Shown here: one piece after another, positions 1,339 to 47,276 of the stretch | Layout of the letters: every line of letters starts with the position of its first letter | How positions within the stretch are numbered: the first letter of the stretch is position 1 | Program-made: the position numbers and the translations under genes | DNA from: a virus | Length of the DNA stretch: 64,000 nt | Virus record (IMG/VR): IMGVR_UViG_3300027320_000006 | Location: 28,359-92,358 of that record | Direction: 5' to 3' (one strand) | The notes under the pieces: model-generated | Told to the model about the DNA's origin: nothing | Databases searched by the model: none | The model's input: only the letters and a program-made list of their open reading frames with translations

Positions 1339-1397
1339 ATGTAATCTCCAAAGAGTAATATTGTTATTTTTGGCTGTTGCTTAGGGAATAATCCTTT

Positions 1398-1431: not shown

Positions 1432-1448
1432 CTATTAGGTTTTTATTA

Positions 1449-2138
1449 TTAAGCTGTTATCGCTCTAGAGCCATTAAGCCCAACTCTATTACCTGCTCTA
1501 TCGCCTTGAGCATAAGCACTACCGTTGATTCTACTGTTGCTCTCCTGCTGTTGTGTTACTCTAAACTTGCTTCTTATGTAGTCGTTGTTTTCAGCCTTAG
1601 AAAGCGTATATGGGTCTACTTTAATAAGAGCATTGGACTTTGACTCTAAGATAATAGAATTCTTCTTTTCCATCAATCTTTGTCGTAGTCTATGAACCAT
1701 GCCTAGTTTGAAACTGTTAGCATATGTCTTGCCTTCTTGTTTGGTAAGGGACAGGCTAGCCATATGACTTTTGCATTCAAATTCTACAACATTGGCTAAG
1801 TATGTAAACATCAAGATAGTTGCTTGTCTGTTCGTTTGCTTGCCGATAATATAATATACTCCAGTGCCAGATACTTTTAGGATGTGACAATAGTGAGCAT
1901 CAGATACAGAGTTAAGCAATTCTGTTCGCCATGTAGAAAATCTCTTGCCGGTGAACTTTACTTCTTCGTGTTCTACAGATTCTTTTTTCTCTACGTTGAT
2001 TTCTGTCATAGAGAGGTTATGTTTAGAGAGCATATCCATTGCCATTCTCAGGGCGGTGGATGCTTCGTTCTCATTAGGGGATGCTGAAAGGGCGAGTAGT
2101 TTCTTAATCTTCTCGATGATGTTTTGATTTGGTTCCAT
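1449..2138 (-). CDS. DUF2786 family protein
   Basis: Residues about 5-40 (IIEKIKKLLALSASPNENEAS... followed by AMDMLSKHNLS) match the DUF2786 signature seen in many phage and plasmid proteins of unknown function. The middle (about 50-150) resembles the metallopeptidase-like region that often follows DUF2786, but no HExxH is present. The C-terminus ends with repeated Gly/Arg turns (YAQGDRAGNRVGLNGSRA), also typical of these proteins. I chose the ATG at 2138 because GGAGG lies 5 nt upstream; an in-frame GTG 12 nt earlier is worse placed. It has its own promoter and terminator. Confidence 0.8.
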   Translation of the reverse strand: MEPNQNIIEKIKKLLALSASPNENEASTALRMAMDMLSKHNLSMTEINVEKKESVEHEEVKFTGKRFSTWRTELLNSVSDAHYCHILKVSGTGVYYIIGKQTNRQATILMFTYLANVVEFECKSHMASLSLTKQEGKTYANSFKLGMVHRLRQRLMEKKNSIILESKSNALIKVDPYTLSKAENNDYIRSKFRVTQQQESNSRINGSAYAQGDRAGNRVGLNGSRAITA

Positions 2139-2154
2139 TATTTCCTCCACACAT

Positions 2155-2182
2155 ATATTATCACATATGCTACAGGTTGCAA
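2155..2182 (-). promoter_or_regulatory. Sigma70-like promoter for the DUF2786 gene
   Basis: TTGCAA (2177-2182 complement), 16 bp spacer containing TGTAGCATATG, then TAATAT (2155-2160). The same core recurs before rIIA (5953-5980) and, on the plus strand, at 10624. It sits inside the 3' end of the next gene upstream. Confidence 0.75.
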
Positions 2183-2538
2183 GGGTCGAATGAGAAATCT
2201 ATCATTTTAATTGGGAAGAATATATTTGGGTATGGGATTCGTAGAGCGTATCCTATTTTATTATTCCCAATCACATCACCATATTTAATTCCTATTGGGT
2301 TGGAATGGTATAGGGTGATTATATTTCTTTCATAGAACGGGATGTCTGAATCGGTGAAGAGGCATAGTGATTCAATCCACAATCTCTTCGGGGATATGAT
2401 GTCGTTCTCAGGGAAGGCTATATTACCTGACGCTACATGATACAACTTGGATGTGTCTAGAACATAAGATTTTAAATATTCTATATCATCCTTGCGTTCT
2501 TCAAGGCTAGTATCATAGTTCTTGAGGTAGTGAATCAT
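2170..2538 (-). CDS. Hypothetical protein, predicted leaderless
   Basis: A 122-residue protein of no recognised family, mixed alpha/beta with many Ile/Tyr/Asp and no membrane segment. A TACACT -10 box ends 5 nt before the ATG at 2538, with a TTGCAG -35 box 17 bp upstream, so the transcript should start at or next to the start codon. A longer start five codons upstream would precede the -10 and has no ribosome-binding site. Its 3' end contains the promoter of the next gene. Confidence 0.6.
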   Translation of the reverse strand: MIHYLKNYDTSLEERKDDIEYLKSYVLDTSKLYHVASGNIAFPENDIISPKRLWIESLCLFTDSDIPFYERNIITLYHSNPIGIKYGDVIGNNKIGYALRIPYPNIFFPIKMIDFSFDPCNL

Positions 2539-2543
2539 AATGT

Positions 2544-2584
2544 AGTGTAACATGGAAAGAGGGAGACTGCAAGCAATCTCCCTC
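2544..2584 (-). promoter_or_regulatory. Promoter with -35 box inside a palindrome
   Basis: TTGCAG (complement of 2567-2572), 17 bp, TACACT (2544-2549). The -35 lies in the loop of a perfect 8-bp inverted repeat GAGGGAGA/TCTCCCTC (2559-2566 and 2577-2584), directly after the rIIB stop. There is no U-run, so this is a poor terminator and may be an operator. Confidence 0.65.
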
Positions 2585-2592
2585 GAAATTCT

Positions 2593-3864
2593 TTATGCGT
2601 CTACTTTATATTGCAGAAGGATATCGAAAATATAATCTGAATCGTCATAGATGGAATCAATATATTTTAATACTTCTCCCATTTGAACAGACTCGAAATC
2701 TTTGTATTCCTTTTCCAATGCGTTCTTCAGCTTAACATATTGTGCTTCATCAAGGTTCTTTAATGTAGCCTTCATATCAATATGAGATGATAGGTCTACA
2801 GTAATCTCCTCGTAAGAATCCTCATCCTCATCATCCTCGAATTCCTCGGAGTCTTGTTCTTCCGGCTCGAATTCTTCAGGGTCTTGCTCCTCGAATTCTT
2901 CCATTAGTTCATCAAAGAGGTTTTCAGATATAGTATCTTTTAATACACCCAGAGGCATTACATCTTCTGTCGGGGATATTTTTTTAATATCTTGTACTGC
3001 TTCATCTTCTCCCCATTTGTCAAGAAGATTAACAACATCGGATACAGATATTACATCCATCATTAATGGTTTGTTTTCCCATTTCTGATTAACATAAGTA
3101 TCATTGTCTGTTTCCAGATATGAATCCTGAATTTTATTTTCATCCAAGGTTACATTATATTCTTGTGTAACCTTATATTTACAGGTACGCAATTTCTGGA
3201 AATTACAATCTGTTGGAATACTTACAACATCAGCAGGGTCGATTTCCACGATGAGCAGATGACCGCCTTCAGGCATAAAGTCTTTGGCGTAATCAAATGT
3301 CCCTGCATGGAAGCCGTGGGAGCATCCTACGTCCTTGTTATCATCGACCTTGTTACGAGGCATTTGAAGAGTATTACCAACCGTATTATTAAACGTTCCA
3401 GTATGACAATCGGTGTAATTTGCTCTCACTGCTTTGTAGGCTTGAATTGTGCCATTGGATGTAATGGGCAAATTCCTATGCTCTAAGAATGTATACAATT
3501 CATCCACTGCTCTTTTGCTAGGATTTAATTGTAGTCGGGTCATGAACTTGAAAATCGGTGTACAGTCGATATTATTAGCCATGAGATTAATAATACGAGA
3601 TGCGATAATGCCGTTTACCATTTCCCCATCGATTGTTACATTGCCGTCTTTAACAATAATATTCTCATATTGTGCGTAGAGGGAATTAAACTTAAGAGTA
3701 GGGTTGAGAACGAATTTCAGTTCCTCCCAATTCTTTTCGGAGAGAAACTTGATAGCATTACGAAAGTTTACGTTCTCCGCTGTAATGGTGTACTGTTCAG
3801 AATCAATGAACACGGTGAGGAATCCGGATGATGGGGCGGGATTACAAGTGAATGAAGGTTCCAT
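2593..3864 (-). CDS. rIIB: rIIB-like protein
   Basis: The 423-residue product carries the conserved RIIB core: FLEHRNLPITSNGTIQAYKAV at about 126-146, TG..N..G....MPRN.VDD at about 155-175, and GCSHGFHAGTFDYAKDF at about 180-196. It then has the ILVEIDPADVVSIP-like strand and an 'LRTCKYKV' motif. In T4, RIIA and RIIB act together in membrane-associated lysis and exclusion phenotypes whose biochemistry is unresolved. About residues 325-355 form a very acidic Glu/Asp/Phe repeat (EEFE units). It lies immediately after rIIA, as in T4, but has its own promoter and an AAGGAAA ribosome-binding site. Confidence 0.9.
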   Translation of the reverse strand: MEPSFTCNPAPSSGFLTVFIDSEQYTITAENVNFRNAIKFLSEKNWEELKFVLNPTLKFNSLYAQYENIIVKDGNVTIDGEMVNGIIASRIINLMANNIDCTPIFKFMTRLQLNPSKRAVDELYTFLEHRNLPITSNGTIQAYKAVRANYTDCHTGTFNNTVGNTLQMPRNKVDDNKDVGCSHGFHAGTFDYAKDFMPEGGHLLIVEIDPADVVSIPTDCNFQKLRTCKYKVTQEYNVTLDENKIQDSYLETDNDTYVNQKWENKPLMMDVISVSDVVNLLDKWGEDEAVQDIKKISPTEDVMPLGVLKDTISENLFDELMEEFEEQDPEEFEPEEQDSEEFEDDEDEDSYEEITVDLSSHIDMKATLKNLDEAQYVKLKNALEKEYKDFESVQMGEVLKYIDSIYDDSDYIFDILLQYKVDA

Positions 3865-3884
3865 ACTAATTTCCTTTCAAGAAT

Positions 3885-3924
3885 AGTATATCATATGACA
3901 GGAGGGATGCAAGCCCTCCTGTCA
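3885..3924 (-). promoter_or_regulatory. rIIB promoter with -35 inside a perfect hairpin
   Basis: A perfect 11-bp inverted repeat (arms 3896-3906 and 3914-3924) has the loop ATGCAAG. Read on the minus strand, the loop is the -35 box TTGCAT; TATACT follows 16 bp later (3885-3890). The hairpin also immediately follows the rIIA stop at 3932 but has no U-run. Confidence 0.75.
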
Positions 3925-3931
3925 TCATTTG

Positions 3932-5932
3932 TTACATTTCCATTATTTGATTATATATTGAAAATGGGCTTCTAATGTATTGGGAGATAATATTAATCTT
4001 TTCATCCTTCATTAGAACTTCTTGTTTTTCTTTAACAATGTAAGGTTCGTATGGAATATTATAATTAATATACGCTTTTATCATTTTAATATTATGAAGA
4101 GCATTTGCGCTTTTGTAATCATTATCAGCGAAATCAAGCAATTCCATAATATATTTCAATTCAGGATTTGTGATACTAGTATTTGACGTTTTATATCTAT
4201 GAATGGACTTGAATAAATCATCTACACGTTCTGCTTCTAAGAGTTTATTAATCTCCTGTTCATTATTATAATATAGTTCGTCTGCACTTTTCTTTAACGC
4301 TTCTGTAAGACTAAGCCAAGAATCACCTACAGATTTAATATGTTTTGGTTTAACACCGATGATATTTTTAATACCATATTGTTCTAAATCGTTAATAGTG
4401 CTGTTAGTGATATCAAATTTCAATCCGTTGCGTTCAGGGGAGAATCTGGAAATAACAACATAAATTCGCTGTTCATCCAAGTCTACTTCTTTCGCAACTT
4501 TCCAATGGTCGCTGTTAGTACTACCATATCTATTGAAAGAATAATATTCTGCATCTGCCATTGCTACTCTCGGTGTTTTGGATTTGACCGATTGAACAGC
4601 AGGTAAGGTTTTGACATGAACTAGATTTGCTCCAATCATATCTGGACTATTAATAAATTCTTGCGCTTTTGCATCAGATGAGAAATATATTAATGTAGGC
4701 TTTTCACTATCACCTAGATGTTGGATTAATCTTTGTTTAATAGTATATTCTGGAGTACAAGGACTAGCAACATAATAGACTGTATTCGATTGGCAAATAA
4801 TATATTTTTGAATTCTAGCCCGATTAGCAAGAGTACTATAATATACTTTTACTTTCGCTCCGTCTAATGAAAGATTATTATTTGTTATAGTATGAGCATT
4901 ATATTTATAAGACGGAATTCCCATACTTGCAAACGAAACATCATAATAGATTGATTTTGCTTCAAAGATACTACGGCATTTAGTAACCTTCTGCTGTATT
5001 ACTTTTTGCACTTCCACGTTGATATTATTGATAGCGTTGATAATCCATTTTTGGGTTTTATCATTTAATTCTAATGATTCCCTAGACGCTGAATTTGTAA
5101 CATCACCAATTTCTGCTTTAAGATGAATAGTGTAACCGTTTTGGTCTAATATTTTTCTATCATCAGATTCTAGATTAATATTTTCAGTAGATACAGGATA
5201 AGCGATATTTCCCATATGAACGATAAGAGTCGGTTCACCATAGTGCTTTTTAACAATATACCAGTTATTGCCTTCTAGGGTTTTGAATGAAGACTTGAAT
5301 GTGTTAATCTGCCGGACGATATTATCATTATTGAAGGTAGGAATATTATCCCAATATCGGAAGAAGAAATAACATTTATCAGATAATATTTTAGCGTCTT
5401 GTGCTTTTATTGGGATTGTAATTTCTAATCCAGTTTCATCTGTTTCGGAAGATGAAACGAGCGATACTACACCTTTATTGGATTCATCGATAAAAGCATT
5501 GTATACATTTTTAATACCATTGTGATAAGAGGTAATAAGGAATGTGCTAGTATATGCAAAAGCGGATTTACTACCCAGACCAAGCATACCTACTTGATTA
5601 TTTGTATTTCGCTTTGTAGATTCGCCATAGGATGCAAAGACATTTTTAATATCATCATCGGACAAACCAGTGCCATAATCACGAACTACAAACTTACCAT
5701 CGCCCCAATAAGACGGTAGGCTAATGTTGATAGGCTTTGTAATACCAGAAGCAACATGAGCATCTAAGGCATTCGTGCTGTATTCACGAATAATAGCCAT
5801 TATCTTATCAGAATATAGTTGTCCCCTGAGAATTGAGAAAATATGCGCTGTATTCTCTTCTTTAATGGAGAAAAATGTCTCTACGCTATTGTTACTACGA
5901 ATAATAACATTGTTGGTTGTTTCTGCTATCAT
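3932..5932 (-). CDS. rIIA: rIIA-like protein, GHKL ATPase fold
   Basis: The 666-residue product starts with a GHKL-type ATP-binding domain: N-box 'REYSTNALDAH' (E50, N54), the 'RDYGTGL' G1 box (D85, G87, G89), and a glycine-rich lid 'VGMLGLGSKSAF' at about 113-124. This is the RIIA arrangement. The rest (about 200-666) is the alpha/beta and helical region typical of RIIA and shows no other domain I can name. The start has AAGGGA 7 nt upstream and a TTGCAA/TAATAT promoter. It pairs with rIIB downstream. Confidence 0.9.
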   Translation of the reverse strand: MIAETTNNVIIRSNNSVETFFSIKEENTAHIFSILRGQLYSDKIMAIIREYSTNALDAHVASGITKPINISLPSYWGDGKFVVRDYGTGLSDDDIKNVFASYGESTKRNTNNQVGMLGLGSKSAFAYTSTFLITSYHNGIKNVYNAFIDESNKGVVSLVSSSETDETGLEITIPIKAQDAKILSDKCYFFFRYWDNIPTFNNDNIVRQINTFKSSFKTLEGNNWYIVKKHYGEPTLIVHMGNIAYPVSTENINLESDDRKILDQNGYTIHLKAEIGDVTNSASRESLELNDKTQKWIINAINNINVEVQKVIQQKVTKCRSIFEAKSIYYDVSFASMGIPSYKYNAHTITNNNLSLDGAKVKVYYSTLANRARIQKYIICQSNTVYYVASPCTPEYTIKQRLIQHLGDSEKPTLIYFSSDAKAQEFINSPDMIGANLVHVKTLPAVQSVKSKTPRVAMADAEYYSFNRYGSTNSDHWKVAKEVDLDEQRIYVVISRFSPERNGLKFDITNSTINDLEQYGIKNIIGVKPKHIKSVGDSWLSLTEALKKSADELYYNNEQEINKLLEAERVDDLFKSIHRYKTSNTSITNPELKYIMELLDFADNDYKSANALHNIKMIKAYINYNIPYEPYIVKEKQEVLMKDEKINIISQYIRSPFSIYNQIMEM

Positions 5933-5952
5933 AATAAAATCCCTTCACACAT

Positions 5953-5980
5953 ATATTACCACATATGCTACACATTGCAA
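5953..5980 (-). promoter_or_regulatory. rIIA promoter
   Basis: TTGCAA (5975-5980 complement), 16 bp containing TGTAGCATATG, TAATAT (5953-5958). It is nearly identical to the DUF2786 promoter at 2155-2182. Confidence 0.75.
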
Positions 5981-19253: not shown

Positions 19254-19358
19254 ATAAAATCTTGTTATTTGTTGTATTATATATATAGGTTATTAACCAA
19301 GGTGATCTTTTAGACACCTATTTTAGAGCGTACCTTATGGGCGCAAATGGAGAATTAT

Positions 19359-19850
19359 ATGGCTAGTATTGATGATGTATTGAATCTACCTCAGCGTAGA
19401 ATTTTAATGCCCAATCGTAATGTGATCATGGATCAACATGAACAGATTATCAACAAGTTTTTTGACGATTTTTTAGGTAATCGTAAAAACTTTATTCATT
19501 CCAACACTTCTTATCCAAAAATGGATATCTTTGAAGATGATTCTTATTTCTGTTTGGACTTTGCTGTACCCGGTGTTGAAGAAAAAGATCTTGACATTGA
19601 AGTTGTCAAAGAAACTAAGCTTTTAACAATCACTGGAAATTCAAGAATCCTTAGAGAGAAGAGTTATTTCTATCATCTTAAAGAATTGAAGCAATCTGCT
19701 TTTACAAGAACAATTCAATTACCAGACAATCTTGAGCTTGACCCTGAAGTTTGTCATTTAGAAGCTGGTATTCTTAAATTAGCTTTTAAGAAGATTGTTT
19801 TTAAAGAAGAAGAGCTTAAAGAAACAGTAAAGAAAATTAAAATTAAGTAA
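19359..19850 (+). CDS. Small heat-shock protein (Hsp20/IbpA family)
   Basis: 163 residues. An alpha-crystallin domain spans about 43-140: 'PKMDIFEDDSYFCLDFAVPGVEEKDLDIEV' begins it, and 'TRTIQLPDNLELD' then 'LEAGILKLAFKK' close it. It is an ATP-independent holdase that keeps unfolding proteins soluble. I start at the ATG at 19359 because GGAG lies 6 nt upstream; an ATG 12 nt earlier lacks a site. It has its own terminator and adjoins clpP, a logical proteostasis pair. Confidence 0.9.
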   Translation: MASIDDVLNLPQRRILMPNRNVIMDQHEQIINKFFDDFLGNRKNFIHSNTSYPKMDIFEDDSYFCLDFAVPGVEEKDLDIEVVKETKLLTITGNSRILREKSYFYHLKELKQSAFTRTIQLPDNLELDPEVCHLEAGILKLAFKKIVFKEEELKETVKKIKIK

Positions 19851-19870
19851 ATCATAATTTTACTTAAGGA

Positions 19871-19899
19871 AGAGAGGTATTTTATGCCTCTCTTTTTTT
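19871..19899 (+). terminator. Terminator of hsp20
   Basis: AGAGAGG-loop-CCTCTCT followed by seven T; the -10 box of clpP begins only 9 nt later. Confidence 0.85.
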
Positions 19900-19907
19900 G
19901 TGTGTGG

Positions 19908-19919
19908 TAAAATAGGTTT
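19908..19919 (+). promoter_or_regulatory. clpP -10 region, predicted leaderless start
   Basis: TAAAAT (19908-19913) is followed by six bases and then the clpP ATG. No clear -35 box: the position is occupied by the T-run of the hsp20 terminator. Confidence 0.5.
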
Positions 19920-20519
19920 ATGATTATTCCTACAGTATTAGAAAAATCATCTACCGGTGAACGTGCTTATGATATTTGGTCTAGATTACTTAAAGACCGA
20001 ATTATCTTTTTAGGGCAAGAGGTAGATGATTATATTATTAATTTGATTATCGCTCAGATGTTATTTTTAGACAAGGAAGATAGTCATAGACCGATTGAGT
20101 TTTATATTAATAGTCCTGGTGGTAGTGTTAGTGCGGGATTAGCTTTGTATGATGTTATTAATACAATTTCTGCTCCTGTTAATACCACTTGTGTAGGTAT
20201 GGCAGCTAGTATGGGAGCTATTCTTTTAGCTGGTGGTACTGGTACTCGATCTGCTTTGCCTCATTCTCGTATTATGATTCATCAGGTATCTTCTGGTTTT
20301 CGTGGTACATCTGCTGACATTCGTATTCAGGTTAATGAGACAAATAAGTTGGAAGATCAATTATTCGATATTCTTTCTCTCTCCACTGGTAAAACGAAGA
20401 AGCAGATTGCTAAAGACTGTGATAGAGATTATTACATGAGTGCGGAAGAAGCCAAAACGTATGGTGTTATTGATTGTGTAATTGAAAGTAAGAAAAATGG
20501 CAGAAATTCTCAAGTCTAA
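19920..20519 (+). CDS. clpP: ATP-dependent Clp protease proteolytic subunit ClpP
   Basis: 199 residues, the family's normal length. Catalytic Ser97 (GMAASMGA), His121 (MIHQVSSG) and Asp170 (DRDYYMS) are all present, as is 'YINSPGGSVSAGLALYD' at about 62-78. ClpP forms a tetradecameric barrel fed by a Clp ATPase. No clpX or clpA is in the window, so it may assemble with host unfoldases, or with host ClpP. A -10 box ends 6 nt before the ATG, so leaderless translation is predicted; AGG is also 3 nt upstream. Confidence 0.95.
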   Translation: MIIPTVLEKSSTGERAYDIWSRLLKDRIIFLGQEVDDYIINLIIAQMLFLDKEDSHRPIEFYINSPGGSVSAGLALYDVINTISAPVNTTCVGMAASMGAILLAGGTGTRSALPHSRIMIHQVSSGFRGTSADIRIQVNETNKLEDQLFDILSLSTGKTKKQIAKDCDRDYYMSAEEAKTYGVIDCVIESKKNGRNSQV

Positions 20520-21477
20520 GTCTATTTATTATAATGATGTAAATCTTGTAGCTCAACCTTGTAAAGTTAAGTCTCGTAAAGATATTCCTGTAGAGTTAAA
20601 TAGAATCATAGTTTCTCCTATGGAAGCTATTGTTGGTAAAACATTTGCTCTAAAGGCTAATGAGCTTGGTCTTACAGTTTGTCTTCATCGTTTTTGTTCT
20701 ATTGAGGAGCAGGTTGAGCTTTATAATTCTTTACCTAATAAAGCTAATGTATTTGTATCTATCGGTTTGAATGATTGGGATAGGGTCAAGGCATTAAAAG
20801 ATTGTGGTGCTGATAAATGGCTAATTGATATGGCTAATGGTTATATGCACAAAGAAATTACTGAATGTACTGAAAAGCTAGAACAGATTGCTCCAGTGTA
20901 TGATTTAATGTTGGGTAATGTTCATTCAGCTCTTGGATTTGAGTTGCTTTCAAAAATTAAATTAAATTCCAAGCATGATAAATATATTCGTGTAGGTATT
21001 GCTGGTGGAAGTCCTTGTGCTACTAATGATTCTACTGGATACAATCGTGGTCCAATTACTGAAATCATGGAAATTGAAGAATATACTTATGATTCAGGTC
21101 CATTTGTAATTGCTGACGGTGGTATTAAGAATGCTGGATATGCTGCTAAGGCATTTGGTGCTGGAGCGGATTATGTTATGATGGGTGGGTATTTTGCTAG
21201 AGCGTTTGAAGCAGAAACTCATTTAAGAGGAGACGGAAACTATTGGGGTGGTGCATCTCATAAGCAACAGATTCTCTCCACTGGTAAAGTATATCGTCAT
21301 TCTGAGGGTAAAGAAGTAGCTATTGTTGATGAATTGCGTCCTCTTGAAGTTCTTGTAGATGAGCTTTGGGGTGGGCTATCTTCAGCAGTTTCGTACAGTG
21401 GATATAAAACGCTTGGTGATTTTGTTGGTAATGGTGTTTTTGAAGTAAAGCAAAATTCATTACCACCTAAGAGATAA
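20497..21477 (+). CDS. IMP dehydrogenase / GMP reductase family enzyme
   Basis: 326 residues, a TIM barrel without CBS domains. The catalytic-loop Cys is in 'GIAGGSPCATNDSTGYNRG' (about 168-186). Later come 'VIADGGIKNAGYAAKAFGAGADYVMMGG' (about 203-230) and a flap region with 'HLRGDGNYWGGAS'. It interconverts GMP/IMP or IMP/XMP; length and lack of CBS slightly favour GMP reductase, but the sequence does not settle it. Start at 20497 inside the clpP 3' end, giving a 23-bp overlap, so the two are co-transcribed. Confidence 0.85.
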   Translation: MAEILKSKSIYYNDVNLVAQPCKVKSRKDIPVELNRIIVSPMEAIVGKTFALKANELGLTVCLHRFCSIEEQVELYNSLPNKANVFVSIGLNDWDRVKALKDCGADKWLIDMANGYMHKEITECTEKLEQIAPVYDLMLGNVHSALGFELLSKIKLNSKHDKYIRVGIAGGSPCATNDSTGYNRGPITEIMEIEEYTYDSGPFVIADGGIKNAGYAAKAFGAGADYVMMGGYFARAFEAETHLRGDGNYWGGASHKQQILSTGKVYRHSEGKEVAIVDELRPLEVLVDELWGGLSSAVSYSGYKTLGDFVGNGVFEVKQNSLPPKR

Positions 21478-23350: not shown

Positions 23351-24049
23351 ATGTCAAAGAAATATTTTGGTTATTTAAATGAGATAGATTATAAGGGAAG
23401 AAATTTTACTTTTGAAGAAGCTAAAAGAATTCTACTCTCTGGAAGATATTTTGCTTTTGGTGAAGATAATCATTCATCCTCTGTAATCGCTTGTAAATTT
23501 AAAGATTTCTACCTGTACGATTTAAATACACAAGATTTTTTGATTCCTGTAAGGTTTGATCATTGGAAGAACTATAATAATTGGAAGATTTTACCTATGC
23601 CTAAGAATAAATTTAATAATAAGTTCGTTGGTAGTGATTTTGATACTTTTGCTGAAGAGAATGATATTAGGTTGAAAAGAGATATTAATTGGGCTCTTGA
23701 TATGCTTAAACATGGGAAGATCGTTACAAGAGAAGGCAATCCAAAGATTTATTTATTTCCTCCTGATAACTATGATAATTCTAATGTTAAAATCACTGCT
23801 GAAGATTTATTCGCTGAGGATTGGGAGATTTTTCATTTTAAAACATTCAAGGATGTATTAGATGATATGTATGCTGGAAAAACAATTAGACGTAAGAGTT
23901 GGCATTCTGACTTGGGTATTGGAATGTATACAAATTCACTAATGATAAAATATGAAGATTTGTTAGCAGACGATTGGGAAGTTGTTGATGTTGTAGCTGA
24001 AGTTGATGAAATGCAAGATCAGATTATGAAAGATAGAAATGAGTACTGA
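23351..24049 (+). CDS. Triplicated DUF2829 (Tad2-like) protein
   Basis: 232 residues that read as three consecutive DUF2829-like units. Unit 1 (about 18-82): 'FTFEEAKRILLSGRYFAFGED' to 'NNWKIL'. Unit 2 (about 112-160): 'INWALDMLKHGKIVTREG' to 'EDLFAEDWEIF'. Unit 3 (about 164-213): 'FKDVLDDMYAGKTIRRKSW' to 'EDLLADDWEVVD'. Unit 1 is the most degraded. DUF2829/Tad2 proteins bind immune signalling nucleotides and block Thoeris defence. GAGG lies 5 nt before the ATG. First gene of the cassette. Confidence 0.75.
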   Translation: MSKKYFGYLNEIDYKGRNFTFEEAKRILLSGRYFAFGEDNHSSSVIACKFKDFYLYDLNTQDFLIPVRFDHWKNYNNWKILPMPKNKFNNKFVGSDFDTFAEENDIRLKRDINWALDMLKHGKIVTREGNPKIYLFPPDNYDNSNVKITAEDLFAEDWEIFHFKTFKDVLDDMYAGKTIRRKSWHSDLGIGMYTNSLMIKYEDLLADDWEVVDVVAEVDEMQDQIMKDRNEY

Positions 24050-24299
24050 ACAATTTATTTATTCTGAGGATTTTGTCCGTGGAAGAATTTACAGTTATCT
24101 TAAGTTTCAAAAGTATATGGAATCTATTGCTAAAATTGTATGTGATGAATTAAATTTTGGTGATTTTAAATCTGTACGTCTTGATCCTAAAGGTGATTTT
24201 ATTTGGGTGACATTTGAAGATAGTGAATTTGGCTTTGATGCTTGTTATTTGTGGGATAAAGATATCAAAGGTAATATTGAGAATTATATAAATCAATGA
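24039..24299 (+). CDS. Hypothetical small protein in the DUF2829 cassette
   Basis: 86 residues, no DUF2829 motif. The N-terminal helical part (about 1-40) is followed by a beta-meander ('KSVRLDPKGDFIWVTFEDSEFGFDACYLW'). Overlaps neighbours by 11 and 4 bp, so it belongs to the operon. Function unknown. Confidence 0.6.
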   Translation: MSTEQFIYSEDFVRGRIYSYLKFQKYMESIAKIVCDELNFGDFKSVRLDPKGDFIWVTFEDSEFGFDACYLWDKDIKGNIENYINQ

Positions 24300-24544
24300 A
24301 TGGTTTAGAAGCATTGCAATTTATTAAAAAAGGATGTAAAATCAGATGTAAAGCTTGGGAAAATAAGGATTGGTATTTGTATTATTCTGATTATTCTGGA
24401 TATGCTTTTTCAGTTAGGTCAGAAGAGTTTCCAAGGGTTCCAAATTTGAATCCTTCTACACCTTGGACTAACTTACATAATCAAGAAATTATAGAAGAAT
24501 TCTTGCGTGATATATTTGAAAATGAATGGGAGCTAGTGGATTAG
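24296..24544 (+). CDS. DUF2829 (Tad2-like) protein
   Basis: 82 residues. 'MNGLEALQFIKKGCKIRCKAW' (1-21) and the closing 'FLRDIFENEWELVD' are the family's start and end signatures; the loop between them differs from its neighbours. Proposed to bind a defence-signalling nucleotide (inference from Tad2). Confidence 0.75.
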   Translation: MNGLEALQFIKKGCKIRCKAWENKDWYLYYSDYSGYAFSVRSEEFPRVPNLNPSTPWTNLHNQEIIEEFLRDIFENEWELVD

Positions 24545-24778
24545 ATGTTTAATATTTCTTTTGATGTTACATATAAATTGAAAATGGGGTTTATCGTCGT
24601 TCAAAAACATGATAATGGAATTTCTAAGTGGAGAATCTTAGACGAAAAGCTTGAGACTTGTTTTTTTGGTGAGAATCTGATCGAGGCTAATTGGGTTACA
24701 GCAGATGTATTGATTCTTGATCCTAATGCTTCTTATAGTTTTGAGCCTGTTACAAAAAATAAAAATGAATGGAACTGA
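24545..24778 (+). CDS. Hypothetical small protein in the DUF2829 cassette
   Basis: 77 residues (MFNISFDVTYKLKMGFIVVQKHD...), beta-rich, no recognised family. The start directly abuts the previous stop, and the 3' end overlaps the next gene by 14 bp. Confidence 0.6.
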   Translation: MFNISFDVTYKLKMGFIVVQKHDNGISKWRILDEKLETCFFGENLIEANWVTADVLILDPNASYSFEPVTKNKNEWN

Positions 24779-25043
24779 TGCATTAACTCTTTTACGAGCT
24801 GGATATATTCTTAGGCGTAAAGCTTGGGAACCTGATATAAAATGTAAGGCTTATTTCAGTGATGATATGAAGTCTGTTAAGATTAATATTGATGACCCTA
24901 TATTATTTGCTTTAGACACGCATTTAGTTCCACAATGGGTTCCTGAAAAGCCTGAATTTTCCAGCTATGTAAGTTATTATGATGTTATTGATAATGGGGA
25001 TTTATTAGAAGACGATTGGGAAGTTGTAGATGAAATTCTCTGA
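24765..25043 (+). CDS. DUF2829 (Tad2-like) protein
   Basis: 92 residues. 'MNGTDALTLLRAGYILRRKAW' at the start, 'DLLEDDWEVVDEIL' at the end, with a longer central insertion (about 35-70). I start at the ATG at 24765, which matches the N-terminus of its neighbours. Confidence 0.8.
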   Translation: MNGTDALTLLRAGYILRRKAWEPDIKCKAYFSDDMKSVKINIDDPILFALDTHLVPQWVPEKPEFSSYVSYYDVIDNGDLLEDDWEVVDEIL

Positions 25044-25248
25044 AGTAATTGATTCTTTGATGCAATACAAGCCAATATCGAGAAGCGTTTGGCCTGATGG
25101 TAAATTTTTGTATCTTGATAAAGAACAAAATTGGTTTGCTTATCATATCAAAGAAGATTACGAAGAAGATGATTACGAATTTATCACCTATAGACTTGAT
25201 TTAAAACCAGAAGATATTATTGCTGAAGATTGGGATGTTTTAATATGA
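25030..25248 (+). CDS. DUF2829 (Tad2-like) protein
   Basis: 72 residues. 'MKFSEVIDSLMQYKPISRSVW' to 'EDIIAEDWDVLI'. Closely related to the next product, so recently duplicated. Overlaps the previous gene by 14 bp and the next by 4 bp. Confidence 0.8.
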   Translation: MKFSEVIDSLMQYKPISRSVWPDGKFLYLDKEQNWFAYHIKEDYEEDDYEFITYRLDLKPEDIIAEDWDVLI

Positions 25249-25511
25249 AATTCTCTGAAGTAGTTGATTCATTAATGGAAGGTAAACCAATTTCTCGCAC
25301 TGGTTGGGAAAATGGCAAATATATGTATTATGACAAAGAAGAAGATTCTTTTGTGTATGTATATTATGCAGATGATTCAGAAAACGGTTATGAATTAGGG
25401 ACATTCGGTCTTGATTTAGAACCCCGTGATGTTGTTGCTGAAGATTGGGATATTGATACTTGGGATTTAGACCATATTGTTGACGCTAACAAAAAGGTAG
25501 ATGAAGAATGA
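25245..25511 (+). CDS. DUF2829 (Tad2-like) protein
   Basis: 88 residues. 'MKFSEVVDSLMEGKPISRTGW' to 'RDVVAEDWDIDTW', plus a charged C-terminal tail of about 17 residues not seen in its paralogues. ATGA overlap with the previous stop fixes the start at 25245. Confidence 0.8.
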   Translation: MKFSEVVDSLMEGKPISRTGWENGKYMYYDKEEDSFVYVYYADDSENGYELGTFGLDLEPRDVVAEDWDIDTWDLDHIVDANKKVDEE

Positions 25512-25531
25512 CAGGACTGGGAGGAAGTAGA

Positions 25532-25750
25532 ATGAAATTTGCTGATGTCATTGACTCATTAATGTCTGGCAAGCGTGTGCGTAAGACCAATTGGGAAAGT
25601 ACTACTGCTTTCTTAATCTACGACAAGGAAGATAACACTTTTGATTTCTACGAAGTCTTAGATGGAGAAGTATGTAGGACACAATTTTATTCAACACTAG
25701 ATCTTACTCCTAAAGATTTGATGTCTGACTTCTGGGAGGTTGTAGAATGA
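25532..25750 (+). CDS. DUF2829 (Tad2-like) protein
   Basis: 72 residues. 'MKFADVIDSLMSGKRVRKTNW' to 'KDLMSDFWEVVE'. The usual D-D-W near the end is D-F-W here. GGAGG 7 nt before the ATG at 25532 decides against a longer start at 25508. Confidence 0.8.
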   Translation: MKFADVIDSLMSGKRVRKTNWESTTAFLIYDKEDNTFDFYEVLDGEVCRTQFYSTLDLTPKDLMSDFWEVVE

Positions 25751-26025
25751 CTGGAATCGAAGCTTTGTCCCTTTTAAAAGATGGCAAAACATTAAGAAGA
25801 ACATCCTGGGAAGCTCATGAAAAATGTAAAGCCTTAGATTTCTTTGGTAAATGGATTATACATCTGGAAAAAGTACAGGATGATAAAATTTTAGATAAAG
25901 AAATAGAGAAAATATTTCAAAATAGTTTTGCATTTACTAAGACTACTTTTGATGATTTCTTTGGATTATTTGATAAGATAGAAGCGGGTGAGTTCTTACA
26001 CGATGATTGGCAAATAGTAGAATGA
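25747..26025 (+). CDS. DUF2829 (Tad2-like) protein
   Basis: 92 residues. 'MTGIEALSLLKDGKTLRRTSW' to 'EFLHDDWQIVE', with a long charged central helix (about 40-60) that the shorter paralogues lack. ATGA overlap with the previous gene. Confidence 0.8.
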   Translation: MTGIEALSLLKDGKTLRRTSWEAHEKCKALDFFGKWIIHLEKVQDDKILDKEIEKIFQNSFAFTKTTFDDFFGLFDKIEAGEFLHDDWQIVE

Positions 26026-26246
26026 CTGGAATAAAAGCACTTAAAGCAATTCGTAAAGGATATCAAGTGCGAAGAATTCATTGGAAAAAAGGCGAGTATT
26101 TGTTTCAGATGCTTGGTGTTTTAGATCAACATAATGAAATAAGGTGGGGTTTTGGCGGAAGACTTATTTGGACTAGTAAAGTTGTTGATGCTACTGAATT
26201 TTTGAGTGATGATTGGGAAATAGTAGAATGCCTAAGTACAGATTAA
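26022..26246 (+). CDS. DUF2829 (Tad2-like) protein
   Basis: 74 residues. 'MTGIKALKAIRKGYQVRRIHW' to 'EFLSDDWEIVE'. The start at 26022 overlaps the previous stop (ATGA). Last DUF2829-like member of the contiguous cassette. Confidence 0.8.
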   Translation: MTGIKALKAIRKGYQVRRIHWKKGEYLFQMLGVLDQHNEIRWGFGGRLIWTSKVVDATEFLSDDWEIVECLSTD

Positions 26247-28182: not shown

Positions 28183-28410
28183 CTATCTACATCTTTTTTG
28201 ATATGTAGGAAAAATATCTCCGTAATCTGCTTTTCTGAGTATTCTAATTACATCTTCATCATTCATAGCTAATTTTTGAACATTTGATTTAAGATAATAT
28301 ATATCTACCGAATTTGCATAAGGGAATATATCTTCTAAATGTTCAGCCAATGTTTTTTCTTCTTCATTGTAGATATATGTTTTAGTTCTAGCAGCTAATG
28401 AATACCACAT
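28183..28410 (-). CDS. MWY-tagged small protein
   Basis: 75 residues beginning MWYSLAART. After the tag it is a small helical domain ('TLAEHLEDIFPYANSVDIYYLK'). It is one of five neighbours with an N-terminal MWY. Function unknown; last in the minus-strand unit. Confidence 0.65.
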   Translation of the reverse strand: MWYSLAARTKTYIYNEEEKTLAEHLEDIFPYANSVDIYYLKSNVQKLAMNDEDVIRILRKADYGDIFPTYQKRCR

Positions 28411-28411
28411 T

Positions 28412-28771
28412 TTATATATTTCTTTTCTTATATAATATTTCTACTGGATGATCATTTACAAGACTAGCCCAATATCCTGGGTGTATTTCATCCGCATTTA
28501 CTACTACTTTATATACTTTGAATGTTTTTCTTTTATCATTCCAAAAGTTAGTATTACCAAAATCTTCAGCTTCTTGTGGAGATGTAGCTAATAAAGAGCC
28601 TGATCTAAGCTCTTCTAAGTCTAATCTAGAGCCATGATAAAAAACGTATTTATCGCCTTCTCTATCTACTTTATGTCTTTCTAGCCATTCTTCATTTGAT
28701 TCTTGGTTATTTGATGTTTTTGTCCATGTTTTTTTGATATCTATATTGTCTGCTGATATTCTATACCACAT
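28412..28771 (-). CDS. MWY-tagged ADP-ribosyltransferase-like protein
   Basis: 119 residues beginning MWYRISADN. After an N-terminal segment, 'DKYVFYHGSRLDLEELRSGSLLATSPQEAEDFG' (about 41-73) and 'KTFKVYKVVVNADEIHPG' (about 82-99) resemble the ADP-ribosyltransferase core: a YHG strand, a 'GS.LATSP..A..FG' segment, and a later strand pair. A catalytic Glu is not certain. A T4 Alt-like virion-delivered enzyme is an attractive inference. Confidence 0.6.
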   Translation of the reverse strand: MWYRISADNIDIKKTWTKTSNNQESNEEWLERHKVDREGDKYVFYHGSRLDLEELRSGSLLATSPQEAEDFGNTNFWNDKRKTFKVYKVVVNADEIHPGYWASLVNDHPVEILYKKRNI

Positions 28772-28772
28772 A

Positions 28773-29471
28773 TTAATAATCTCTCCATTGACTCATAAGA
28801 GATGGTATTTTTTTTCTATTCATTTCAAAATCTTTAATGTCATTTTTAAAATCAGCAACTTTATTTACATTATATACTCTATCAAACAAACCTTTTCCAG
28901 TATTAATTTTAAATCTTATATTTGCGGGTTGTATTAAATTAATAATTTCAAATAACTTTTGCATTTGTGTATATGTTGGAACGTGTACAGAATTTACAGA
29001 CATCATTGAACCCATGTGACTGATTCTTATACCTTTGTCAAAATAATCATGTAGAATTTCAGTGACAGCATCTTCTTGTGCTAAAAAAGGTTGATCAGGT
29101 CCAGAATCAAAATTTATTCTTTCTGCATAATCCATTGGACCATAAGCTTTGTCTGGCAAGTTTCTGATATTATATTTTTCTGATATTTCTGGATTATTAC
29201 GAAGACTTTTACGAGATTGATCTAATATTTTATCTATATAGTTGCTATGGCTTGAACCTTGATGAATAGCTCCAGTTCCAGTGAGAATTAAATGATAATC
29301 GCCTTTGGAATGATCTATTTGATTTACTGGATCAGGGATATTTGATCTCACCACTTCTCTAAAAACATCATCAGGCACTCCGGGTTTTTCCATAGGTTCA
29401 GGAGTATTTGTTTGTTGTGGTTGTTCAATACCAAATAATTTTCCAAAATCAATTGCTGTCCTGTACCACAT
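28773..29471 (-). CDS. MWY-tagged protein
   Basis: 232 residues beginning MWYRTAIDF; AGGAG lies 8 nt before the ATG. A Pro/Gln-rich linker (about 16-35) separates the tag from a domain with 'DYHLILTGTGAIHQGSSH' (about 58-75) and 'VPTYTQMQKLFEIINLIQPANIRFKI'. That last segment loosely resembles 'PTNDLTLNNIIKFVTPDSINKWEI' in the upstream neighbour, so the two may be distant paralogues. Function unknown. Confidence 0.65.
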   Translation of the reverse strand: MWYRTAIDFGKLFGIEQPQQTNTPEPMEKPGVPDDVFREVVRSNIPDPVNQIDHSKGDYHLILTGTGAIHQGSSHSNYIDKILDQSRKSLRNNPEISEKYNIRNLPDKAYGPMDYAERINFDSGPDQPFLAQEDAVTEILHDYFDKGIRISHMGSMMSVNSVHVPTYTQMQKLFEIINLIQPANIRFKINTGKGLFDRVYNVNKVADFKNDIKDFEMNRKKIPSLMSQWRDY

Positions 29472-29474
29472 ATC

Positions 29475-30038
29475 TTAGTCTCCTGATCTTCCTTTATAGA
29501 AAGATTGTGTATTATCAACTCTTTGTATAGGGGCAATATTAATATCTTCTTTTACATTTGTGGTATTTTGTAATGAGAGATTGTTTATAGATTGTTTTAA
29601 GGAATCAAAGCCTCTGCCATGCGGATTATTAGGTACATTTAATATTTCCCATTTGTTGATTGAATCTGGAGTAACAAATTTTATAATATTATTTAGGGTG
29701 AGATCATTTGTTGGGCCATAGATAGTTATGTCAGCCATATCTATCATTTTAGTAACTCTGACTGTTCCGCCTTGAGCAAATTGTCCTAAGCCTCTCCCTA
29801 CAAATTCAATAGGATGTTCTTCAAAATCTGCATCACCTGGCATCATTCCATGTTTTAATTTTAACATCATTGAAGTATGTTGATGACCATAATTTTTAGG
29901 TGGTGCATATTTCTCACCATTTACTATCCAGAAGTGTTGTTCATTTTCATTAGAAGCAACATTGGAAAAAGAATTAAAAAAATCTTCTTCTGGAATTTCT
30001 TTATTGTTAATTGTAATTGCTGCGTATCTGTACCACAT
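29475..30038 (-). CDS. MWY-tagged protein
   Basis: 187 residues from MWYRYAAITINN; I use the ATG at 30038 because it aligns with the tag of its neighbours. The domain contains 'QHFWIVNGEKYAPPKNYGHQHTSM' (about 34-57) and 'VRVTKMIDMADITIYGPTND'. His-rich, possibly metal-binding. First gene of a four-gene run. Confidence 0.65.
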   Translation of the reverse strand: MWYRYAAITINNKEIPEEDFFNSFSNVASNENEQHFWIVNGEKYAPPKNYGHQHTSMMLKLKHGMMPGDADFEEHPIEFVGRGLGQFAQGGTVRVTKMIDMADITIYGPTNDLTLNNIIKFVTPDSINKWEILNVPNNPHGRGFDSLKQSINNLSLQNTTNVKEDINIAPIQRVDNTQSFYKGRSGD

Positions 30039-30070
30039 AGTTCTTTTTTTACAGATATAATCATTTATGA

Positions 30071-30106
30071 CCTTTCTATGATATAATAGATACATAGAGG
30101 TGAGAT
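30071..30106 (+). promoter_or_regulatory. Extended -10 promoter and RBS for the 30107 gene
   Basis: TATGATATAATAGATA (extended -10) is followed by AGAGGTGAG just before the ATG. Confidence 0.6.
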
Positions 30107-30361
30107 ATGAAATTTGTGCAGACTCTTAAATATTTGAAGCAAGGATACAAAGCTCGTAGAACTTGCTGGGATGAAGTATCTTGGATTGCTTTAGGTAATA
30201 CAAAACAAGATGATGAGGGTGAATTTGATGAAACTATTGTAGATACCAGTGAGATTGATTATGCTACATTTTTCTTAATCAATCTTCAGGATGGTATTGA
30301 AGCTTATTGTCCATACCTTCAAGATATTGTTAATGATGATTGGATAATATTTGACGAATAA
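30107..30361 (+). CDS. Isolated DUF2829 (Tad2-like) protein
   Basis: 84 residues. 'MKFVQTLKYLKQGYKARRTCW' to 'DIVNDDWIIFDE', the same ends as the 23-26 kb cassette. It is alone on the plus strand between minus-strand genes, with its own promoter and terminator. Confidence 0.75.
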   Translation: MKFVQTLKYLKQGYKARRTCWDEVSWIALGNTKQDDEGEFDETIVDTSEIDYATFFLINLQDGIEAYCPYLQDIVNDDWIIFDE

Positions 30362-30365
30362 TAAG

Positions 30366-30391
30366 AAAGCCAGAGAATATTCTCTGGCTTT
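30366..30391. terminator. Bidirectional terminator
   Basis: AAAGCCAGAGAATATTCTCTGGCTTT with T-runs on both strands, between convergent genes. Confidence 0.85.
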
Positions 30392-30394
30392 TAT

Positions 30395-32908
30395 TTATTT
30401 GAATGTGTCTGGATATTCTTCTCTCCATTTAGGATTATAGATATCATATGACATAAATGAAGGTTTAGGTTCTTTTAAAGTTTTACCACCTTCTGTACCT
30501 TGAGCGACCTGTCCTAAATCAAAATCTCTCATAGTTTTAAGTTCTTGATTTGAAAGTGGTGTTGTATCTCCCGTTGTATTTGCGGCCATCTGGTCTTTTC
30601 TAATTGATATTGGAGAAACATAATTAGGATCAGCAGCTATTTCATTAGTTATTTTGATATCTTTAAATGCTATATAAGACGCTACAGATTTAACGATAGT
30701 ATAAATATCATGATCAAATGCACCCGCTTCAATATTTCTGATTTTTAATTTTAACTTTTTGATGTCTTCTTGAAGTTTTTTATATTCTTCGCTATCTTCA
30801 CTTACTCTTGTTTTTAATATTTCAGCTTGATCTTCTAATGATTGTATTTCTTCGATAGTAGCTTTTTTTATGTCTTCTCGATTGACCTTACCAGCTTCTT
30901 CATAAAATTTAATTGCTAGTTGTTTTTGTTTTAGGTAATCTTCAGTAGCTTGGGTATAAGGTTGTTCAGAATTTTCATAAGGTCCAAATCTTTTTTCTGC
31001 CCATTCTTGAAGTTTTTGTTCAGATACCATAGGAGTAGCATTCAACCAGCTTGCTTCATTACTCATCAGCATATCTGATAATTCTTCTACAACAGCTTTT
31101 CTAATGATTTCCGATGTTCTCATTTCTTCAATTCTTTTATGCAGAATTTCAATCATATAAGAAGTATTTCCATATACTCTTGCAACAATTTCTCTAATGT
31201 CTGATAAATACAATCTAGATTGATTGTATGCTTCGCCTTCTTTTAAGGATGTTTTAGGATCTACATTACTGAATACTTCTGATCCGCCTTTGATAACATA
31301 ATCTGCTAAATGGGCTAATTCATGAGCAGCTGTAGACATATTAATCATGTCTTTGGTTATTCCAAGATTGTTAATAATATTGTCACTATTTACATAGTCT
31401 TCAGATATAAATTCGTTGATAAATATTGAAGGACCATTATTGTTATCCGAAAATCTAGGAACAAAATATCCACAAGAGTTCATTAATGTAGGTGTGATAA
31501 AACCATATTCTTGAAGTGATGTATTTAATAAATCTTTATAAAATTCAGAATTTTTAAATACATAAATCTTTAATCTTGATTTAATATCACTTATGATATT
31601 TTGATCATCTGAATTGAATCCAAATGAATTTAGAATATCATTTAGTAATTTTTCATATTCTCCAGTAATATCATGTTTTTCAATATATCCATTTTGTAGA
31701 TTTTTTTGAAATATATCGAGTATAGGAGAATTAGCACTTTGTGGTGTTGTATTTTGAGTTTGTGTATTTTGAGCTCGTTGAGACTGATATGAATTAAGTT
31801 TTTCAGAGTTTTTTTGCACATAAGCATCAATTTCTTCTTTTGTGGGTATTTCTTTAAATTTCCTATTTGCTAAATCTTTATTTTCCAATGAAGCTTTTAT
31901 GTATTCTTTGATTATTTCTTCTTTCGGTCCAACACCTAATCTGTGTAAATAAGGTTTGTAATAATATTCACAAGAAGGATAAATTTTTTCATTTATAATT
32001 TGTCTATTGTTTTTAAATATTTCATACCAAAAATCACCCATAAAATAAGTCATTCCGTATTTGAAAGCACCAACGAATCTATTTTCAAAATGCTCTGGAC
32101 TAAATTTATTTTTATTTTTATCTAAATATTCTATATATTTATCAAATTTTTGATCATTTATTAAAAGATCATAAACTTTGGGTAGATCATCCATTACTCT
32201 TTCATTGTGAGCTTCATCTAATAAATATAAATAATCGTCAATAGGTAATCCAGAATATTGGACAACATCATAATAAAGTTGCCTACCAGCATCTGATTGT
32301 ATGTTATCAATAATATTTTTAAGTATTTGTTCTCCAGAATATTTATCAGCATTAAGAAATTCATACATAGGATCTTTATCCGTAATATATTTTTTAATTT
32401 CTGTTCTTGCTTCACTCTGTTGCATGCTTGAACTAGATAGTGTGTCCATATTCATCATTATATATATACGAACACGCTTTGGAAGATCAATGCCTTCTTT
32501 TGTGTATGCTAAGAGTTTATTATATCCGAAATTATATACAGTGTTATGTGTCTCTAATGTACTACCCATATGTGAGAAAGTGTCAGGCAATAACATCATT
32601 TCTTCGTTTTGAGAAATTTTATTATTCTTTATCATTAACGGAACTAATCTATTAGCTCTATGTACAGTTTCAGCATCTTTCGAATACATATAAATCAAGT
32701 GTGTTATAACAGATGTTAAATAATCACTCGTATACTTGTTGTCAATCAAGTCAAGAAGATATTTATAAAGATGTTCAAAATTTGGTAATTTTGAAATAGA
32801 ATAATTATGTCGTATTTCCCATAATATATCTTCTGGTGATTTACTAGTATCCATTCCACCAGCCAACTCATCTAACGCACCAGCTTCTACTATTTTTTGA
32901 TACCACAT
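30395..32908 (-). CDS. MWY-tagged large HExxH metallopeptidase-like protein
   Basis: 837 residues beginning MWYQKIVEAGALDEL. A zincin motif 'AAHELAHLADYVIKGG' lies at about 526-541 (HELAH), and a possible third ligand Glu is in 'LSDIREIVARV' about 45 residues later, a gluzincin-like spacing. The first 500 residues are helical. A coiled coil follows (about 680-720, 'EEIQSLEDQAEILKTRV'). It could be a packaged protease acting on the virion or host; no substrate can be read. Confidence 0.7.
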   Translation of the reverse strand: MWYQKIVEAGALDELAGGMDTSKSPEDILWEIRHNYSISKLPNFEHLYKYLLDLIDNKYTSDYLTSVITHLIYMYSKDAETVHRANRLVPLMIKNNKISQNEEMMLLPDTFSHMGSTLETHNTVYNFGYNKLLAYTKEGIDLPKRVRIYIMMNMDTLSSSSMQQSEARTEIKKYITDKDPMYEFLNADKYSGEQILKNIIDNIQSDAGRQLYYDVVQYSGLPIDDYLYLLDEAHNERVMDDLPKVYDLLINDQKFDKYIEYLDKNKNKFSPEHFENRFVGAFKYGMTYFMGDFWYEIFKNNRQIINEKIYPSCEYYYKPYLHRLGVGPKEEIIKEYIKASLENKDLANRKFKEIPTKEEIDAYVQKNSEKLNSYQSQRAQNTQTQNTTPQSANSPILDIFQKNLQNGYIEKHDITGEYEKLLNDILNSFGFNSDDQNIISDIKSRLKIYVFKNSEFYKDLLNTSLQEYGFITPTLMNSCGYFVPRFSDNNNGPSIFINEFISEDYVNSDNIINNLGITKDMINMSTAAHELAHLADYVIKGGSEVFSNVDPKTSLKEGEAYNQSRLYLSDIREIVARVYGNTSYMIEILHKRIEEMRTSEIIRKAVVEELSDMLMSNEASWLNATPMVSEQKLQEWAEKRFGPYENSEQPYTQATEDYLKQKQLAIKFYEEAGKVNREDIKKATIEEIQSLEDQAEILKTRVSEDSEEYKKLQEDIKKLKLKIRNIEAGAFDHDIYTIVKSVASYIAFKDIKITNEIAADPNYVSPISIRKDQMAANTTGDTTPLSNQELKTMRDFDLGQVAQGTEGGKTLKEPKPSFMSYDIYNPKWREEYPDTFK

Positions 32909-37061: not shown

Positions 37062-37295
37062 ATGAAATTATTTAGTCAAATGTCTCGTCCAATGATAGAT
37101 TTAGGATTAAAAATTAGATCTAGAAGATGGCCTGAAGACTATTATATATATCGGAATGAAGAAAAAATTATAGACAGCATGGGAAATGTGTTTTTTAATT
37201 CTTGGGAAGATTATTTTATATTGCATCAAACAGTATTAGACAATGCTGGGCCAATTTGGGAAGTTTATGATGATCTAGGATTAGACAAGTTATAA
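37062..37295 (+). CDS. Divergent DUF2829-like protein
   Basis: 77 residues. 'MIDLGLKIRSRRWPEDYYIYR' (about 11-31) and 'AGPIWEVYDD' near the end retain the R-x-W...W-E-V pattern of the 23-26 kb family but lack the 'EAL..L..G' opening. Isolated gene with its own promoter and terminator. Confidence 0.5.
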   Translation: MKLFSQMSRPMIDLGLKIRSRRWPEDYYIYRNEEKIIDSMGNVFFNSWEDYFILHQTVLDNAGPIWEVYDDLGLDKL

Positions 37296-46778: not shown

Positions 46779-47276
46779 TTAGTCATCTAATGGATCGTAA
46801 CCATCATCTCCAAAATCATTTCTCTGTTCTTTCAAATCAGATTCATATTTTTCACAAGCTTCAGAAATAGACATCTCATCATTAAGCCATGGTTCTAAAA
46901 TATATAAAGTATCGCCACTCTTAACACTGTCTTCCAAATATGTTCCTGATAATGCAACCGTTAGTTTATCTTGAACTGAATTTTCCAATTCTTGATCGCC
47001 CTCTGACATTGGATCTTGTTGATATTCCATTTTATATCTTTTCAACATCGGGTCATTTTCTAAAGATGATACATTTGAATAGTTTCCACCAGCAAATCCA
47101 TCTTCTAAACTTTTATCAAGATCTCGTTGAGTACGCATTTCATACTTGCTGTATTCACTATCGAAATTTTGAGCCATTTTAACAGCAACACGAGTCAATT
47201 TATCTGCTTCGTCGTGCATTCCTCTATAATCCAATAAATTAGCTATTTTTACTAATTTTACTAATGATCTATTCAT
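46779..47276 (-). CDS. Probable virion protein with 'IAN..AD' N-terminal motif
   Basis: 165 residues. 'LVKIANLLDYRGMHDEADKLTRVAVKMAQ' (about 7-35) is the clearest copy of the shared N-terminal motif. The rest is acidic and disordered-looking. AGGAG before the ATG. Function unknown; a packaging signal on the N-terminus is inferred. Confidence 0.65.
   Translation of the reverse strand: MNRSLVKLVKIANLLDYRGMHDEADKLTRVAVKMAQNFDSEYSKYEMRTQRDLDKSLEDGFAGGNYSNVSSLENDPMLKRYKMEYQQDPMSEGDQELENSVQDKLTVALSGTYLEDSVKSGDTLYILEPWLNDEMSISEACEKYESDLKEQRNDFGDDGYDPLDD

Follow-up and report, generated by a model that had tools for sequence, protein, structure and literature searches.

A tandem array of Tad2-like genes in a large tailed phage: candidate binders of immune nucleotides

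Introduction

What would a phage do with eight Tad2-like genes in a row? This question is raised by a 64,000-nucleotide stretch of viral DNA (the window; positions 28359-92358 of the 92,358-base record IMGVR_UViG_3300027320_000006, labelled G000), in which genes at 23351-26246 form an array encoding proteins of the family PF11195, the 'Thoeris anti-defense 2-like domain' previously called DUF2829. Coordinates given without a record label are positions in the window, and genes are named by their first position; labels such as L011 and L021 stand for other viral records or loci that were compared. Ligands reported within the family include glyco-cyclic ADP-ribose (gcADPR; SPO1 Tad2), His-ADP-ribose (His-ADPR; MoTad2), and cyclic dinucleotides (PMC12043709, PMC13299392), and since characterised members bind such different compounds, ligand switching in the Tad2 fold is established.

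Tad2 proteins are small phage products that mop up alarm molecules of bacteria, and each one characterised so far has pointed the way to particular immune signals. With its roughly ten separate subfamilies, such an array would offer a prepared collection of probes for immune nucleotide signals, unknown ones included. The reading preferred here, to which about an even chance is given, is that the array encodes a group of binding proteins with the Tad2 fold and that immune nucleotides are sequestered by at least some of them.

Family membership and predicted fold

The first-pass annotation, made from motifs in the sequence, had listed eight DUF2829/Tad2-like genes at 23351-26246. All eight are matched by PF11195, each with an E-value of 3.8e-5 or better; six reach at least the 25 bits of the Pfam cut-off, and 24296 and 25532 fall slightly below it (Table 1). 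The interspersed genes 24039 and 24545 are not members. Seven of the eight genes encode single-domain proteins; in the 232-residue product of the remaining gene, the domain occurs in two to three degenerate copies. An AlphaFold model of the latter (23351), based on three sequences, has a mean predicted local distance difference test (pLDDT) score of 38 and is unusable; the number of its domains is thus taken from profiles.

Family membership is further supported by profile comparisons in both directions. When a profile built from nine members of this phage, without canonical Tad2, was compared with all PDB sequences, seven sequences were found at E ≤10, all of them Tad2 or AcrIIA7 and all matched over the full length with E-values from 3e-8 to 2e-4. 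A profile made only of canonical Tad2 finds the seven single-domain array members, the isolated gene 30107, and a related gene outside the window; in the set of 17 sequences searched, 24765 is its weakest match (E 0.0019) and 37062 was not recognised. An AlphaFold model of 25245 has a pLDDT of 80 and was obtained from an alignment of 32 array-type sequences that contained no canonical Tad2. In a Foldseek search of the PDB, the top five matches of this model are SPO1 Tad2 and ModTad2 (probability 1.00, template modelling score 0.5-0.66), with E-values of 0.003-0.01, which are modest as expected for an 88-residue model, and the sixth match follows at E 0.83. When a library of predicted viral structures was searched with it, many of the top matches bore the name 'Thoeris anti-defense 2-like'. 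Taken together, Pfam, the PDB profile search, and Foldseek support the Tad2-like identity proposed from motifs and, for 25245, a predicted Tad2 fold.

All eight reading frames are intact and closely packed. The array genes very likely form one transcript, because neighbouring genes, which all point in the same direction, overlap shortly (e.g., ATGA) or directly abut.

Copy number and related arrays

A canonical Tad2 query was used to collect 50 viral records, which were then searched whole: 49 contain one PF11195 match and one contains two; many of these records are short or partial, so that the counts are lower bounds. Seven known phages have one to four matches each, the highest number being found in Staphylococcus phage SpaA1. 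The array is thus unusual though not unique. Related arrays are present in the metagenomic phages L011, L021/L022, L110, L117/L119, and L140, and a second group (L012/L014/L016, L013, L015, and L025) has about three to five members each. These relatives were found with single-subfamily queries, as no stretch is sufficiently conserved across all members. The 25532 subfamily is present in more of the other phages found than any other subfamily.

Among known phages, no near relative of the array was found at either the DNA or the protein level. Clustered Tad2-like matches on one strand are encoded by the cultured Lactobacillus phages Semele (MG765279, 113015-116093; L171), with six in tandem, and Bacchae (MG765277, 115051-116858), with four. 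Tandem Tad2-like sets appear to have arisen more than once in large phages, or to have been passed on.

Evolution of the array

Paralogs in this phage share 11-54% pairwise identity, and in a phylogenetic tree the subfamilies group across phages and not within one phage. The tree was calculated from short alignments and its support values are only indicative: 0.80 for 24765 with its orthologs of four phages, rising to 0.99 where this group is joined with 25747, 0.94 for 25245, 0.88 for 25532, 0.93 for 30107 with its L021 ortholog, and 0.99 for 37062 (values for 24296 and 26022 are given in Table 1). In L110, genes resembling 24296, 24765, 26022, and 25245 occur in rearranged order with others added. 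An ortholog of 25030 is absent from both L011 and L021. Orthologs of 23351 are encoded at L011 4161-5021 and L021 4428-4994. In three phages, the small gene 24039 is found immediately after the gene for the multi-domain Tad2-like protein, yet it is fast evolving (about 40% identity).

Synonymous divergence (dS) between this phage and L021 was estimated according to Nei-Gojobori, with short genes and with high values near saturation. It amounts to 0.28-0.54 for 25245, 25532, 25747, and 26213, to about 0.9 for 23046 and 24765, and to 1.75, 1.81, and 2.40 for 22424, 27010, and 30107, respectively. That dS of the array core is far below that of the last three genes suggests that the core was exchanged between phages after their split. 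The ratio of nonsynonymous to synonymous divergence (dN/dS) is below 1 in every pair (0.07-0.61, with the maximum for 25245), which is indicative of purifying selection on the orthologs. Together with the grouping of subfamilies across phages, this favours distinct retained functions over dosage.

Proposed function and departures from canonical Tad2

According to the preferred reading, the region would be a counter-defence cassette of a large tailed phage, consisting of eight co-directional, closely packed Tad2-family genes that would be expressed together, probably early in infection. The products would form small oligomers containing ligand pockets, and the small immune nucleotide signals that they sequester would differ between members. 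Such signals may be ADP-ribose-type Thoeris signals, the cyclic oligonucleotides of cyclic oligonucleotide-based antiphage signalling systems (CBASS), or signals still undiscovered. Separate subfamilies, shuffling, and purifying selection are the pattern expected of a counter-defence set with different targets. The first-pass annotation had suggested a diversified set of nucleotide sponges with differing central loops, directed against several defence systems. The diversification is borne out by the low paralog identity and by subfamilies common to several phages, and the differing loops are seen in the gap between the two invariant tryptophans, which ranges from 43 to 67 residues among members; sponge activity against several defence systems is more conjectural.

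Several observations weigh against this reading. In 78 aligned canonical sequences, R18, W21, N22, G23, W69, D75, and D80 show no variation, and conservation of K60, S72, and others is 90% or higher; the values for W-N-G-K and for the C-terminal helix are inflated, as these stretches served to fetch the set, and R18, K60, W69, and S72 are outside the fetching patterns. Of 21 canonical signature residues, each array member retains between 5 and 11; S72 is present in none of the members, and the positions N22-G23-K24, K60, W69, S72, and Q73 are mostly lost, in a comparison for which the loop alignment is uncertain. As reviewed in PMC12043709, Tad2 builds its gcADPR pocket from the β1-β2 loop, the β3-β4 loop, β4, the β4-α3 loop, and α3. 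By our mapping, N22-K24, W69, and S72 would fall into these segments. Since most members have lost the canonical signature residues, 1''-3' gcADPR is unlikely to be their common ligand, and the literal 'gcADPR sponge' reading is weakened.

The same direction is indicated by the central region. The tryptophan gap is 55-86 residues in 76 canonical domains, and six members, namely 25030, 25245 (47 residues), 25532, 26022, 37062, and the one outside the window, are shorter (43-47) than any of these; it is 57-67 in 24296, 24765, 25747, and 30107. The model of 25245 is without helix α2, which is placed in the Tad2 dimer interface (PMC12043709), and five further members have a central region as short as that of 25245. 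As the central region is short and α2 is absent from the 25245 model, a mode of assembly or binding other than that of canonical Tad2 is expected, at least for the compact members. In addition, AcrIIA7 (9kzr) belongs to the same superfamily according to the array profile (E 1.3e-4), the array being no closer to it than to Tad2, and a helix-turn-helix (HTH) domain is fused to a Tad2-like domain in L012 (3484-3879), L013 (5288-5689), and L025 (5218-5619).

These points lend weight to the somewhat unlikely alternative that the Tad2 fold is mainly a general small binding or adaptor module that inhibits proteins or regulates phage genes and is not a nucleotide sponge. AcrIIA7 is reported to inhibit Cas9 and is named as an anti-CRISPR protein. 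A role in regulation would fit the HTH fusions, which look like candidate ligand-sensing regulators, as well as PHROG 643, which is matched by several members and labelled transcriptional regulator; the loss of signature residues would be compatible with either role. However, the remaining PDB matches of the array profile are all Tad2, in several cases with a nucleotide signal bound in the structure, and the HTH fusions sit inside small Tad2 arrays of other phages, with none in this window. That the copies simply provide more of one sponge, or mixed oligomers for one signal, is distinctly unlikely. Sponges do act stoichiometrically (PMC12043709) and the overlapping genes would be translated together, but the paralogs are too dissimilar in sequence and loop length for this to be attractive, and their subfamilies predate the split of the carrier phages. 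Neutral or decaying tandem duplicates are very improbable: one truncated copy is known (L011 6480-6707, without the C-terminal motif that is intact in L110) and the repeats of 23351 are degenerate, whereas the eight frames are intact and closely packed here, dN/dS is below 1 in all pairs, and subfamilies persist in several phages.

The preferred reading of a set of Tad2-fold binders can be extended to Tad2 arrays as a modular repertoire, with one immune signal per subfamily, some of them undiscovered, with sets assembled by cassette shuffling between genomes, and with HTH-fused members of related phages sensing signals and controlling the response. This extension is tentative and, as a whole, unlikely. 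As Semele is a cultured phage with a comparable array, the idea is testable by gene deletion and binding assays.

A conserved DNA element at the end of 25245

The protein 25245 has the C-terminal tail DHIVDANKKV, and the DNA that encodes this tail is a partly palindromic motif. In nearly identical form, the motif recurs at the end of further Tad2 paralogs in L012 (4129), L013 (6237), L015 (6246), and L025 (6255). It is also found within unrelated phage genes and at further loci (L108, L110-L150), with the reading DHxVDxNKxV. In 25 distinct occurrences, which matched a pattern leaving synonymous sites open and come from loci of 32-60% GC, the codons CAT, GTT, and AAC are each used in 25 of 25 cases, and in its fullest copies the motif is an almost perfect palindrome of 30 bp (GACCATTTTGTTGAYGTCAACAAAATGGTC). 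The almost invariant synonymous sites and the palindrome point to a conserved DNA element that is translated incidentally. It may be mobile, or it may serve as a site for protein binding or recombination; a role as junction for the shuffling of array genes is speculation. None of the papers searched names the element. A few cultured phages and plasmids contain comparable sequences.

Members outside the array and genome context

The isolated copy reported at 30107 is a clear PF11195 match. The situation is less simple for 37062, which had been described as a further, divergently oriented copy. By itself it is weak, with a match only to the profile of its own family; its homologs L011 887 and L021 3090 match the same profile with E-values of about 2e-6, and the L021 homolog also matches PF11195 (E 0.0016). 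As these homologs in two related phages match family profiles, 37062 is probably a divergent Tad2-like family member. Its orientation is divergent only relative to a minus-strand neighbour; it lies on the plus strand like the array.

In the whole phage record, 12 PF11195 matches are located in 10 genes, in addition to 37062. A second record of the same virus comprises 165,921 bases, is 99.996% identical over 22,373 bases, and contains the same 12 matches and none beyond. An assembly artefact was rejected, as the array was recovered again in this separate record. The virus is classed simply as a large tailed phage of at least 166 kb, and its genes include RIIA, RIIB, a clamp loader, and an endolysin. 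A search of four of these records with PF07068 (T4 major capsid) gave no match, and the control was likewise silent. Bacterial genomes scanned with the 25532 subfamily gave no match, hence no pointer to the host.

HSP20-like, ClpP, and IMPDH/GMP-reductase-like genes lie just upstream of the array (19347-21477), and a cpn60 chaperonin is encoded at 61669-63285. Two N-terminal tags, MWY(R/S/Q) and M-N-(K/R)...L..LN.IAN.LD..G...EA, recur on otherwise differing proteins at 28183-32908 (minus strand), 46779-47276, and 50348-51841 as well as towards the left end of G000 (189-5963). The endolysin-like protein 50348 begins with a variant of the second tag. These tags are possibly targeting or packaging signals.

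Table 1. Tad2-like genes, interspersed genes, and the DNA element (window positions unless marked G000)
Feature	Position	Strand	Evidence
Tad2-like, 232 residues, 2-3 degenerate repeats, array gene 1	23351..24049	+	PF11195 42.3 bits, four stretches, E 1.1e-10
Interspersed gene, not Tad2-like, family unassigned	24039..24299	+	No Pfam match; orthologs in L011 and L021 at same array position
Tad2-like, long form	24296..24544	+	PF11195 24.9 bits; L110 ortholog, support 0.85
Interspersed small gene, not Tad2-like by profile	24545..24778	+	No Pfam match
Tad2-like, long form, KCKA insert	24765..25043	+	PF11195 25.6 bits; orthologs in L011, L021, L110, L140
Compact Tad2-like	25030..25248	+	PF11195 29.1 bits; nearest paralog 25245, 54% identity
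Compact Tad2-like, C-terminal tail DHIVDANKKV	25245..25511	+	PF11195 32.5 bits; AlphaFold and Foldseek
Conserved DNA motif, partly palindromic, translated in frame as tail of 25245	25470..25501	+	Sequence comparison
Compact Tad2-like, possible upstream start 25508	25532..25750	+	PF11195 24.6 bits; relatives 62-88% identical
Tad2-like, long form	25747..26025	+	PF11195 25.5 bits; ortholog L021 6216-6491, 84%
Compact Tad2-like, final array gene	26022..26246	+	PF11195 25.0 bits; L110 ortholog, support 0.99
Isolated Tad2-like	30107..30361	+	PF11195 36.1 bits; L021 ortholog, 77%
Divergent, putative Tad2-like	37062..37295	+	Own-family profile E 0.54; no Pfam match
Tad2-like gene outside the window	G000 24282-24500	-	PF11195 38.3 bits

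Comparison with known systems

The closest known systems are the Tad2 proteins (SPO1 gp34.65, MoTad2/ModTad2, and HgmTad2; PF11195), to which the array members are homologous over their full length. Members share with them the N-terminal helix, mostly R18, the two invariant tryptophans, and the (E/D)DWE(I/V)V end, and the model of 25245 matches their fold in Foldseek. Tad2 in the strict sense is defined by a homotetramer with two ligand pockets, by binding of gcADPR, and by restored phage growth against Thoeris. In contrast to this array, Tad2 is usually encoded by one gene per phage; several of the members here are compact, the modelled 25245 lacks α2, and residues assigned to the pocket segments are mostly lost. 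AcrIIA7 is matched distantly by the array profile and has a longer chain (158 residues in 9kzr); to our knowledge, no AcrIIA7 array has been described.

Phage SpaA1 resembles this phage in having four DUF2829 matches, two of them in adjacent genes, but three of the four are canonical and high-scoring (68-90 bits) and there is only a single adjacent pair. Semele and Bacchae differ in being Herelleviridae of Lactobacillus plantarum, and the Semele members, which are annotated as hypothetical proteins, bear an extra C-terminal region of about 60 residues. What both phages have in common with the array is the clustering of several Tad2-like matches on one strand.

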